From NCBI GenBank assembly GCA_009780675.1, contig WQZP01000015.1, forward strand, positions 1 to 55,985: a stretch of DNA of 55,985 bases, written 5' to 3'. Below the pieces are notes generated by a model. The model saw only the letters and a program-made list of their open reading frames with translations, searched no databases and was not told the origin of the DNA. The stretch comes from Spirochaetaceae bacterium. GTDB taxonomy: Bacteria; Spirochaetota; Spirochaetia; CADAEX01. The number at the start of each line of letters is the position of its first letter. Position 1 is the first letter of the stretch. Both the position numbers and the translations under genes were made by a program. This document shows positions 52,124 through 55,985 of this stretch, one piece after another.

Positions 52124-53248
52124 ATGAATTTGTTTAAAAGAAAAGTAGGTGAAAAAACCATATGGTATATATCGTATCGGGATAAAAACGGAAACCGCCA
52201 GCAAAAATCTACCAAGACAAGTAAAAAAGCAGAAGCTCTTTTAGAACTAAAAAAGCTTGAAATAGAGGAAGTTGCAAAAAGCAAAGTGTTGTTAAAAGAC
52301 TTTACTTTTAATTTTTTTGAGTATGAAACATCTTTCTGGATAAAAAAACAACTTGCAAAAAACAAAAACATCTCAAAAGATACAGCGCTTTTTAAAGAAC
52401 GAATTTTAAAAAAACATATATTGCCAGCTTTTGGTGATCTGGAAATTAGAAGTATTAAAACTTTTGAAATAGACAAATGGCTTTTAAATAAAGATTGTGC
52501 AAACCAAACGAAAAACCATATTTTGTATACGTTTTCTCAGGTATTAAAAGAAGCAGAATATCAAGAAATAATTGAAACAAACCCATGCAAGAAAATTGAT
52601 AAATATGTTGATGACCACAAAACTAAACCACCATTAAATAAAGATACTCTTGAAAAATTATTTCCAATCGAGCGCAATAATTTTAAAAGTGTGTGGCCAG
52701 ATTTTAATTGGGGCGTAATGTTTGCGCTTATGACATCTTCGGGGATGCGTTCTGGAGAGGCAAGAGCTTTGCAGTGGAAACACGTTTTATGGGATATGGG
52801 AGCAGTACTTATAGAACAGGGATTTTCAAATAGCGAAACTTTAAAAAGCACAAAAGCAGGATATGGAAGAGGAACATATATTCCAGATAGAACCATTACT
52901 CTTTTGTCCGACTTGCGAGAAATGACTGCATATAAAGAAAGTGAACATTATATTTTTTGCAGTGCTGGAGGAACTCCGTTTAATAGAAAGTGGGTATATG
53001 ACCAGTTTAAAAGAGGGGTTGTAAGAGCAGGTCTTGAAGTAGACGCTTCTCCACATTCCTTGAGGCACACATATAATGTTATGATGCGCAACTTACTTGC
53101 GCAGAAAAACCTACCAGAATCTATTCTAAGAAATCAAATAGGGCATAAATCAGAGCGAATGACACAAAACTATGATAATGCTGAAATAATTGAAAAGATG
53201 CACCGTAATGAGCTTGTAAAGCCTGTTTTAAATGACTTTTGGGGTTGA
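52124..53248 (+). CDS. tyrosine recombinase (integrase)
   Basis: The 374-residue protein has an N-terminal arm-binding region (RKVGEKTIWYISYRDKNGNRQ), a core-binding SAM-like domain at about 70-160, and a catalytic domain with R209 in SGMRSGEAR, H311 and R314 in HSLRHTYN, H341 in IGHKSE and nucleophile Y350 in TQNYDNA. All catalytic residues are present, so it should be active. It starts 128 bases after the tRNA and reads inward into the element. The ribosome site is weak. Confidence 0.95.
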   Translation: MNLFKRKVGEKTIWYISYRDKNGNRQQKSTKTSKKAEALLELKKLEIEEVAKSKVLLKDFTFNFFEYETSFWIKKQLAKNKNISKDTALFKERILKKHILPAFGDLEIRSIKTFEIDKWLLNKDCANQTKNHILYTFSQVLKEAEYQEIIETNPCKKIDKYVDDHKTKPPLNKDTLEKLFPIERNNFKSVWPDFNWGVMFALMTSSGMRSGEARALQWKHVLWDMGAVLIEQGFSNSETLKSTKAGYGRGTYIPDRTITLLSDLREMTAYKESEHYIFCSAGGTPFNRKWVYDQFKRGVVRAGLEVDASPHSLRHTYNVMMRNLLAQKNLPESILRNQIGHKSERMTQNYDNAEIIEKMHRNELVKPVLNDFWG

Positions 53249-53332: not shown

Positions 53333-53575
53333 ATGAATTTTGATAAAGAAGAAGAACAATTTCTCGATGAACTCAATTCTGGAAAATTCAAAATAGAACG
53401 CATTCCTAATGCAGCGGATGATTATCAAAACTATGAAGATCGAGATTTAGCTGCTTACAAAAGTTATTTGCAGTCAGATGCTTTTAAATCCCTTGAATTT
53501 CATATTCGGTGGAATCTACTTCTGTTTTTATATCTGAGCCATCATCCCAGCATAAAAACGTTTTTCCATTTTTAA
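53333..53575 (+). pseudogene. truncated antitoxin-like gene (BrnA/CopG-type N-terminus)
   Basis: Behind GGGAGAG, the ATG at 53333 opens MNFDKEEEQFLDELNSGKF, then IPNAADDYQNY, which recalls the N-terminus of CopG-like antitoxins found beside BrnT or RelE toxins. The ribbon-helix-helix part that normally follows is missing; after about residue 50 the sequence changes to an unrelated hydrophobic tail. No toxin gene is present. The family call is moderate, because only the N-terminal segment remains. Confidence 0.4.
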
Positions 53576-53590
53576 TTAAAATCCTTTTTA
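53484..53590 (-). pseudogene. short C-terminal coding remnant
   Basis: On the minus strand a frame closed by TAA at 53484-53486 reads KRILIKNGKT, FLCWDDGSDI and KTEVDSTEYE, which looks like a real protein end, but there is no ATG, GTG or TTG start after the upstream stop. It overlaps the tail of the antitoxin-like frame and abuts the YbjQ gene. It is most likely a leftover of a disrupted gene; the family is not recognised. Confidence 0.35.
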
Positions 53591-54326: not shown

Positions 54327-54725
54327 TTACCCTGTAGTCTCTCTTTTCCCCTCTTTTTCAGCAACTGCTCCATTGACCATAGCTCTAACCATTTTTAATT
54401 CTTCATCAGATAACTTGTTTAAGCCATTGACAATATCTGCTATTTTTTCTGGTGGATGATAAATATTTCCTTCATTAATAGCCAGACTTCTAATATACTC
54501 TGCTCCTTTGTCTCCGTCAACTAAATATTCTACTGATGTATTTAATGCTTTTGCACAGCAATATGCAGTATCAACACTAGGGCTGCTTTTTCTTGTTATT
54601 CCTTGTGAAATAGAATTATCAGATAGTTTGCAACTGGCTATTATTTTTTTTCTTTCAATGCCAAGTTTTGTAATTAAGTTATCTAAATTTGTCCAAAATA
54701 CTGATTTTTCTGGCTTCTTTTTCAT
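54327..54725 (-). CDS. XRE-family (CI-like) repressor
   Basis: I start at the ATG at 54725, preceded by AGGAAT; the frame extends upstream, but those codons overlap the operator region. The 132-residue protein has an N-terminal helix-turn-helix (about 8-62) with ITKLGIERKKIIASCKLS, DNSISQGI and SVDTAYCCAKALNTSVEYLVDG, and a C-terminal helical part for self-association. It reads away from the operators and early genes, as a phage repressor does. It should bind the GTACCAATTGGTAC sites. Confidence 0.85.
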   Translation of the reverse strand: MKKKPEKSVFWTNLDNLITKLGIERKKIIASCKLSDNSISQGITRKSSPSVDTAYCCAKALNTSVEYLVDGDKGAEYIRSLAINEGNIYHPPEKIADIVNGLNKLSDEELKMVRAMVNGAVAEKEGKRETTG

Positions 54726-54785: not shown

Positions 54786-54815
54786 TTGACAAAGTACCAA
54801 TTGTGACGATATATT
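54786..54815 (+). promoter_or_regulatory. rightward early promoter of the element
   Basis: TTGACA (54786-54791) and TATATT (54810-54815) are 18 bases apart, pointing into the early genes. A half-conserved operator (54794-54807) sits in the spacer, so repressor binding would block polymerase. The expected start is near 54822. Confidence 0.65.
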
Positions 54816-54838
54816 GAATGAAAAGTACCAATTGGTAC
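54794..54838. promoter_or_regulatory. two repressor operator sites
   Basis: GTACCAATTGGTAC (54825-54838) is a perfect 14-bp palindrome. GTACCAATTGTGAC (54794-54807) shares its left half. The two centres are 31 bp apart, close to three helical turns, which suits cooperative binding on one face. They lie between the divergent repressor and the early genes. Confidence 0.7.
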
Positions 54839-54902
54839 AAATCTTATTTATACTACATATAAATAATTTAGATACCACTTGACAGTGCTATCTAATAAAG
54901 AA

Positions 54903-55015
54903 CCTTGCCAAAGTTCGGCAGGGGGAAAAGAGCTTTTAAGTGAAGTGTGCGGTGACTTAAAAGCTTTTAAAGCAAGCCATCAAAGAAGCGCACACTTCGG
55001 AGATGGCTTTTTTTT
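54903..55015 (+). ncRNA. structured leader RNA with loop-loop pairing and terminator
   Basis: Three hairpins follow each other: CCTTGCC/GGCAGGG (54903-54923), AGCTTTTAAGT/ACTTAAAAGCT (54931-54965) and AAGCCATC/GATGGCTT (54974-55009), the last followed by eight T. The loop of the second (GAAGTGTGCG, 54942-54951) is perfectly complementary over 10 bases to the loop of the third (CGCACACTTC, 54989-54998). This permits a kissing complex or an alternative long-range helix. It starts about 80 bases after the early promoter and ends 125 bases before the first early gene, so it could be an attenuator or a separate small RNA. Positions 55016-55139 hold another AGCTTTTAAG copy, a TCCTG/CAGGA hairpin, and no gene. 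Confidence 0.6.
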
Positions 55016-55139
55016 GGGTAGGTGGCGAGGTTTACAGTGTTACGGCCTGAAGCTTTTAAGCCTGACTTTTATTGTAATTGGAAAAAATCCTGTCTTTGGC
55101 AGGAAGGGCGAAGCTTTGCAATTTTGAAAAGGGGGAAGT

Positions 55140-55379
55140 GTGATAGTAACTACAGATAGAAAAATTAAATCCATAAAAGATGCTGTAATAGCCGTAATTG
55201 ATAACTATCCAATCGGATATCGTTTTTATGGACATCGATTACATAGCGATGTTATCCGAATATATCCAGCGGCTGAAAACGCTTATGTGGATACCGTATT
55301 AAGAAAAGCCCGCCAGTATCGCAGAAGTTCCTTTAGGGCAGTAAATCAGAAAAGTTTATATGAAAAAATAGCGGGGTAA
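55140..55379 (+). CDS. small early protein, possible winged-helix DNA-binding
   Basis: The GTG at 55140 follows AAGGGGGAA closely. The 79-residue basic protein contains IKDAVIAVIDNYPIGYRFYG, then YVDTVLRKARQYRR, whose helix pattern resembles small winged-helix proteins of mobile elements. I cannot name a family. It is first in a set of closely spaced early genes after the repressor-operator region. Confidence 0.6.
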   Translation: MIVTTDRKIKSIKDAVIAVIDNYPIGYRFYGHRLHSDVIRIYPAAENAYVDTVLRKARQYRRSSFRAVNQKSLYEKIAG

Positions 55380-55807: not shown

Positions 55808-55930
55808 ACATCCTGTCTCCTTATAAAAAGTTGCAAGGCTGCTTACCGTGTGCAGTTATACACGGGATTCCCCTCCTCAAGGGAAATAGTTACATTGCGT
55901 TGCTGGGCTGCATCTGGCAGCGCATTTTTA
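55808..55930 (+). other. intergenic stretch with several RNA hairpins
   Basis: CCGTGT/ACACGG (near 55848-55867), TTCCC/GGGAA, and a 9-bp stem GCGTTGCTG/TGGCAGCGC (near 55898-55924) with G-T pairs followed by ATTTTTA are visible. No reading frame of note is present. It lies directly ahead of the last early gene and may be a second regulatory leader or weak terminator. Confidence 0.4.
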
Positions 55931-55941
55931 AAGGGCTAAAA

Positions 55942-55985
55942 GTGAATTATCAAGAGTTTCTAAAAGATAAGATAAAAATTGCTCC
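55942..55985 (+). CDS. start of an early gene, truncated by the window edge
   Basis: A GTG at 55942 follows AAGGG by about six bases and opens VNYQEFLKDKIKIA to the window edge. The opening resembles phage helicase-type proteins that begin with FLK.KI, but 14 residues are too few for a firm call. It is the fourth gene of the early set. Confidence 0.35.
   Translation, partial: MNYQEFLKDKIKIA

Follow-up and report, generated by a model that had tools for sequence, protein, structure and literature searches.

An early prophage leader with complementary loops in a hairpin and the following terminator: a candidate kissing-loop attenuator in spirochaete phages

Introduction

The lysis-lysogeny switch is usually described in terms of repressor control of initiation and of protein antitermination. 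RNA elements have also been described in phage control regions. In phage P4 immunity (CI RNA) and in the c4 RNA of P1-type phages, complementary segments of a prophage leader RNA control termination and immunity, while the put RNA of HK022, a structured RNA near the start of the phage early transcripts, acts on elongation; we know of no loop-loop pairing in put RNA. Paired loops are found in the purine riboswitch aptamer, where two hairpins with kissing loops occupy a leader with a terminator downstream, and in the pRNA of phi29, whose two loops stay complementary while their letters vary among phages and pair between molecules in the packaging motor.

The leader described here has no Rfam match, which separates it from the purine riboswitch, from the P4 and c4 RNAs and from pRNA. 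It differs further from the riboswitch in having no conserved ligand core, in that the partner of its kissing loop is a terminator and in that the kissing sequence is free to vary; from P4 and c4 in that a protein repressor is present too, P4 itself giving no hit in the scan that recovered our leaders; and from pRNA in being an early leader that ends in a terminator. The HK022 segment that we scanned gave one weak AT-rich hit only.

Two other systems come close. In the I-complex plasmids (IncI-alpha ColIb-P9, IncB and IncK), which have a repZ leader and an antisense RNA, RNAI, loop nucleotides decide compatibility (PMC10724649, which cites Asano and Mizobuchi 1998 for the pseudoknot switch). 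The likeness lies in kissing loop sequences within a leader that controls a key gene. However, the plasmid pseudoknot acts on translation and has a separate antisense RNA as its competitor, whereas here the partner loop is that of an intrinsic terminator. For IsrK of the Gifsy-1 prophage, PMC4825925 describes a prophage leader that yields a small RNA upon termination and an mRNA upon read-through, with alternative structures; IsrK itself pairs with an ORF further downstream and acts on translation, and it is not known to us to engage in loop-loop pairing with a terminator loop. None of the open-licence papers searched describes a prophage leader in which a hairpin forms a kissing pair with the terminator. 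The element reported here has probably not been described before, and it probably serves as an RNA control of the dormancy switch of the virus.

Results

The genome has 82 contigs, one of which is the window (the whole stretch of 55,985 nucleotides analysed). Two matches indicate that the host belongs among the spirochaetes: one to the spirochaete-specific spiro-SPASM radical-SAM protein (564.5 bits, where the cut-off is 250), the other, which is weaker, to the TDE2508 outer-membrane family. The right end of the window is a prophage edge, where an integrase is followed by leftward genes and by an HTH regulator, also leftward, before the rightward early region, which the contig end truncates. 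The tyrosine integrase (52124..53248, plus strand) matched Phage_integrase with an E value of 5e-20. The divergent Cro/CI-type regulator (54327..54725, minus strand), which matched PHROG transcriptional regulators at 1e-6 and, weakly, HTH_3 and Phage_CI_repr, is likely the repressor of this prophage. The first early gene (55140..55379, plus strand) encodes 79 amino acids and matched no family.

The candidate early promoter lies at 54786..54815 on the plus strand (TTGACA, 18 nt, TATATT; 11/12 of the consensus) and was identified by consensus match alone; transcription from it would start near 54822. Two candidate repressor operators were recognised in the sequence between 54794 and 54838, namely GTACCAATTGTGAC at 54794-54807 and the palindrome GTACCAATTGGTAC at 54825-54838. 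Four hairpins follow on the plus strand. Hairpin A (54868..54895) has 10 pairs with a single C.C mismatch and the loop TTGACA. Hairpin B (54903-54923) is formed by CCUUGCC/GGCAGGG, and GAAC at 54900-54903 could form an H-type pseudoknot with GUUC in its loop. Hairpin C (54931-54965) has an 11-bp stem and a loop at 54942-54954, which contains the first kissing segment, GAAGUGUGCG (54942-54951). Hairpin D (54974-55015) is a predicted intrinsic terminator with an 8-bp stem (54974-55009), a 20-nt loop (54982-55001) that contains the second kissing segment, CGCACACUUC (54989-54998), and, as is expected of such a terminator, a U8 tract (T8 in DNA) directly after the stem at 55008-55015. GAAGTGTGCG (54942-54951) and CGCACACTTC (54989-54998) are perfectly complementary over 10 bp, so that the perfect pairing reported in the initial annotation, between the loop of an 11-bp hairpin and that of the terminator, was correct to the base. 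The terminator is followed by a conserved untranslated stretch (55021..55115, plus strand) that contains CCUGUCUUUGGCAGG.

The same annotation had placed a structured early leader here, and the structure was borne out between the promoter and the start of the first early gene at 55140: the RNA of positions 54880-55030 folded at -54.2 kcal/mol against -37.3 +/- 3.6 kcal/mol in shuffles (z = -4.8). GAAGTGTGCG and CGCACACTTC each occur once on the plus strand of the window. With random loops of the same lengths, the chance of the loop match in the window was about 4e-5, and that of the matches in the single leaders of the set described below was 3e-5 to 1e-4. No antisense gene was found by a scan for minus-strand promoters, none of which reached 9/12 of the consensus in the window; a 9/12 match is present on the minus strand of the second copy described next, and its equivalent in the window has two extra bases of spacing.

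A second prophage of the same genome (G000), on contig C23, carries an integrase, cargo, an S24-type CI repressor, a leader, a homologous small gene and a helicase-methylase gene in the order found in the window, and the two leaders are homologous. The C23 promoter (TTGACA-17-TAATAT) is at the equivalent place and the operator palindrome is different (AAGTAATGCTAGCATTACTT). The promoter and operator region is divergent between the two prophages, while the stretches flanking the module of hairpins C and D are nearly identical. The post-terminator stretch has about 95% identity, whereas the next gene, the first early gene, is 65% identical at the protein level. We also observed, at 53485-53590 on the minus strand of the window, the remains of an S24 repressor gene, 92% identical to the 3' end of the C23 copy and with a stop codon inside the match; the window prophage seems to have swapped its repressor for a YbjQ-SH3 gene and a new HTH regulator.

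Comparison of the two leaders showed that the kissing pair GAAGTGTGCG/CGCACACTTC of the window is replaced by GGAGTCAGGA/TCCTGACTCC in C23. Five of the 10 kissing pairs are the same, the other five show two-sided compensatory changes and none is broken, and the starts of the two segments are 47 nt apart in both leaders. Two-sided compensatory changes were also found in stem C (3 of 11 pairs, the other 8 being the same), in stem D (1/6 shared pairs) and in hairpin A (three pairs), where the C.C mismatch of the window is a C-G pair in C23. Hairpin B, like the GAAC and GUUC of its putative pseudoknot, is unchanged, and no other pair was broken or half-changed. Such a pattern is what selection for pairing would predict, and neither chance nor a protein-binding sequence would be expected to produce it; we thus consider the loop-loop pairing to be maintained by selection because the second copy shows compensatory changes. 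The absence of homologues with compensatory changes had been named in advance as one of the results that would refute the initial reading, and the C23 leader is such a homologue. These counts rest essentially on this one aligned pair; the only other alignable leaders, G237:C7 and G218:C2, are near-identical, and the remaining types described below support the model by architecture alone. RNAalifold on the covariance-model alignment was uninformative, three of its rows being minus-strand echoes.

Several smaller features of this region were noted. The sequence AGCTTTTAAG (near 55052-55062), considered as a competitor of hairpin C, was rejected, as it is constant in C23 though stem C has changed. 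GAAGTGTG (55135-55142), which overlaps the ribosome site and the GTG start of the first gene and is absent in C23, equals 8 nt of loop C and could pair with the terminator loop. A terminator-like hairpin, TCCTGCCAAAGACAGGA, lies on the minus strand at 55104-55083, is followed by T6 and is kept in C23; its loop region resembles hairpin B. Positions 55061-55084 of the post-terminator stretch are a 24-nt exact match to a coding gene of another spirochaete (L012:796-819). Further downstream, positions 55816-55985, just 5' of the helicase-methylase gene, have 94% identity to L009:4915-5083 and contain hairpins and the terminator-like GCGTTGCTGGGCTGCATCTGGCAGCGC-ATTTTT; they look like another conserved structured leader of this operon.

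Searches for sequence homologues of the leader in 10 family genomes, 393 phylum genomes, GenBank phages, plasmids and, by exact patterns, IMG/VR returned none besides the window and C23, and 40 relatives searched with a covariance model built on the window leader likewise gave none. A pattern search of 84,980 genomes gave one hit, on a Paraburkholderia contig, which is about the chance expectation, and DNA-search hits in other spirochaetes (L012-L025) were judged to be chance or coding matches. No Rfam 15 family reached its gathering score in the window and there was no meaningful match in the leader at E values up to 5, in agreement with the earlier failure to recognise a known RNA family; that release should include models of the purine riboswitch, C4 and pRNA. 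The other kissing leaders had no Rfam match either, with weak chance-level hits only in L155.

Since no sequence relatives of the leader were found elsewhere, loci gathered by homology to the repressor or to the early gene were scanned for the architecture itself, two consecutive hairpins with complementary loops of which the second is terminator-like. In dinucleotide-shuffled blocks, the loose rule gave a background of about 3 sites per Mb of strand for matches of at least 8 nt and about 0.5 for at least 10 nt. The scan of the entire window on both strands returned the leader site at 54942/54989 as its sole hit. Under the tight rule, 235 loci (1.32 Mb scanned on either strand, with some redundancy) yielded nothing but members of the kissing-leader set; C23, with its 6-bp terminator stem, and G237:C15a were recovered by the looser rule only.

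The element is thus recurrent beyond the window to which the initial annotation was confined: the set comprises the window and six other leaders, together six loop types, each with a perfect loop match of at least 8 nt. Besides the window and C23 types, there are four that have the architecture of the window and unrelated sequences, three in other spirochaete prophages and one in a metagenomic phage. Their loops are GGGACATTT in G237:C15a, AGGTCTACTT in G237:C15b, CGTCATCT in the type common to G237:C7 and G218:C2, and GCCGAATT in the IMG/VR phage 3300031993_000153. The G237:C15 prophage (L074:6100-9200) has two successive modules of repressor and kissing leader, which lie 2 kb apart and differ in loop type. 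IMG/VR also lists the G218:C2 and G237 prophages as viral contigs; the comparison genomes are draft assemblies. Each leader found sits precisely in the interval that separates the first early gene from a divergent CI-like repressor (recognised by Pfam HTH, S24 or Phage_CI_repr matches); in two of the further types, this gene encodes an excisionase-like HTH_17 protein. The terminators of the other types have stems of 6-12 bp and U-rich tails, and those of the further leaders end about 15-30 nt before the start codon. Relatives of the first early gene in other spirochaetes are mid-operon phage genes without an adjoining leader; as a guide, they nevertheless pointed to prophages carrying kissing leaders.

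The kissing leader was missing from most of the repressor-adjacent loci screened. It seems to be confined to some phage lineages because about 28 other such loci of the Treponema-like family gave none. No comparable leader was found in the control regions of lambda, P4, HK022, P2 and TP901-1 or in about a dozen further phage regions, Fels-1 among them. Weak scan hits that were AT-rich or coding matches, and those in TP901-1 (operator repeat), HK022 and Cronobacter ENT47670, were dismissed, and metagenome loci with loose loops were dropped from the set.

When the kissing letters were kept unpaired, both hairpins formed in every type folded in this way, so that the kiss can be added on top of them. 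The kiss of each loop with its own partner was worth -9.8 to -17.7 kcal/mol, while cross pairs among the six types reached no better than -4.7 kcal/mol; all six are orthogonal and none cross-pairs. Adding the kiss to the two-hairpin fold is thus predicted to be favourable, before a loop penalty of unknown size. A long-range helix between loops C and D in place of both hairpins was worse than the two-hairpin fold by 15 kcal/mol in G237:C15a, 12 kcal/mol in the metagenomic phage leader, 6-8 kcal/mol in G237:C7 and G218:C2, and 0-4 kcal/mol in G237:C15b, C23 and the window. What all types share is therefore kissing between a hairpin and the terminator hairpin that follows it. Three terminator stems contain G-U pairs and one C stem shows a C-G to U-G change, which points to an RNA rather than a DNA element. 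In the window and in C15a, the A-tract that precedes hairpin C can pair with the U-tract of the terminator, but not so in C15b, and such pairing was rejected as a general feature; comparison of the folds showed that this tract more often extends stem C.

Within one genome, the loop types are all different (2/2 in G000, 3/3 in G237), a pattern drawn from five prophage contigs in three genomes. The single shared type belongs to two different genomes (G237:C7 and G218:C2), in which the DNA-binding parts of the repressors and the operators differ; the loops therefore do not track repressor specificity.

Discussion

We consider it reasonably probable, on the evidence of sequence comparison, that these leaders are cis-acting kissing-loop transcription attenuators that add an elongation checkpoint to the lysis-lysogeny switch. 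RNA polymerase would start at the repressor-controlled early promoter and make hairpin C and then the intrinsic terminator D. As D emerges, an intramolecular kissing complex between loops C and D would form, because the sequence of loop D perfectly complements that of loop C. Early expression would need read-through, since the terminator stands before every early gene, and for the same reason the kiss most plausibly sets the frequency of that read-through, adding to the protein repressor a second checkpoint at the level of elongation. Loop C might capture loop D before the 3' arm is out, so that closure of D would be delayed and a fraction of the polymerases would pass. We only slightly favour such hindrance of termination at D, because terminators this strong, with stems of 6-12 bp and U-rich tails, hardly need help.

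A purely cis role does not predict very different loops in nearly identical frames. A role in trans, on the whole, we find unlikely. The terminated leader would then be a small RNA that pairs with the nascent leader, disrupts the cis kiss and shuts off the early genes; the resident leader RNA would compete for the loops of an incoming phage of the same type and give immunity or incompatibility beside the protein repressor. The loop sequence would be a specificity tag, and co-resident prophages would therefore have to differ in it, as they do in both genomes with several types. Selection for orthogonality would likewise explain why the window and C23 leaders, almost identical in hairpin B and in the post-terminator stretch, differ at half of their loop pairs. 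The orthogonality of the loop types fits as well, as does the precedent of the I-complex plasmids, in which loop nucleotides of the antisense RNA set incompatibility (PMC10724649). It is suggestive that co-resident leaders may have to avoid cross-pairing and, by extension, that a trans role may exist by analogy with these plasmids. However, each leader is self-complementary and, once terminated and free, ought to close on itself in cis. A lysogen should keep the early promoter repressed, one loop type is common to G237:C7 and G218:C2 despite different repressor HTH regions and operators, and the sample is small. If true, this would be an RNA-based superinfection immunity beside the protein repressor, with a homotypic recognition tag.

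The initial annotation had offered either a kissing complex or a long-range helix that forms instead of the hairpins, and the energies and the maintained stems favour the former. As a mutually exclusive switch, the helix between loops C and D would act as an antiterminator, which we regard as rather improbable. In the window, the forced long-range fold came within 0-1.4 kcal/mol of the minimum free energy and would also pair the U-tract with GGGAAAAGAGC, and the predicted nested helix within 0-4 kcal/mol counts against a pure attenuator in the window and C23. Nevertheless, it was clearly worse in three of the six types, those of G237:C15a, of G237:C7/G218:C2 and of the metagenomic leader, whose stems have 7-12 bp, and the hairpins appear to be needed as stems because these show compensatory changes.

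We hold it very unlikely that the kissing segments are a DNA-level element, such as inverted protein-binding sites (operator half-sites, for instance) whose position in the loops is accidental. Operators adjoin the leader and the weak TP901-1 scan hit TGAACTTT resembles what we take to be the repeated operator of that phage, but the kissing segments are non-palindromic and bear no resemblance to the local operators, they lie within loops of paired stems in 6/6 types, and the G-U pairs and the C-G to U-G stem change fit RNA. Chance hardly deserves consideration as the source of the loop complementarity, having nothing for it except the number of places open to search, whereas six different types occur at one genetic position and the compensatory changes of the second copy refute it.

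A recurrent RNA attenuator at the immunity region would be a second layer beside repressor control, one that annotation overlooks for lack of sequence conservation. It would raise the clean question of whether kissing helps or hinders an intrinsic terminator and whether it acts between phages. The comparison also provides naturally occurring kissing pairs that are mutually orthogonal, and a simple search rule, the complementary loops of a hairpin and of the next terminator. One further hit, in a metagenomic phage, was left out of the count, as about 0.6 such hits were expected by chance in that scan; it is possibly the same device elsewhere, or chance. In L158:5594-5690 (identical in L159 and L166), a hairpin and a terminator with 10-nt complementary loops, AGAGTCGTCG, lie directly before a GIY-YIG endonuclease gene.
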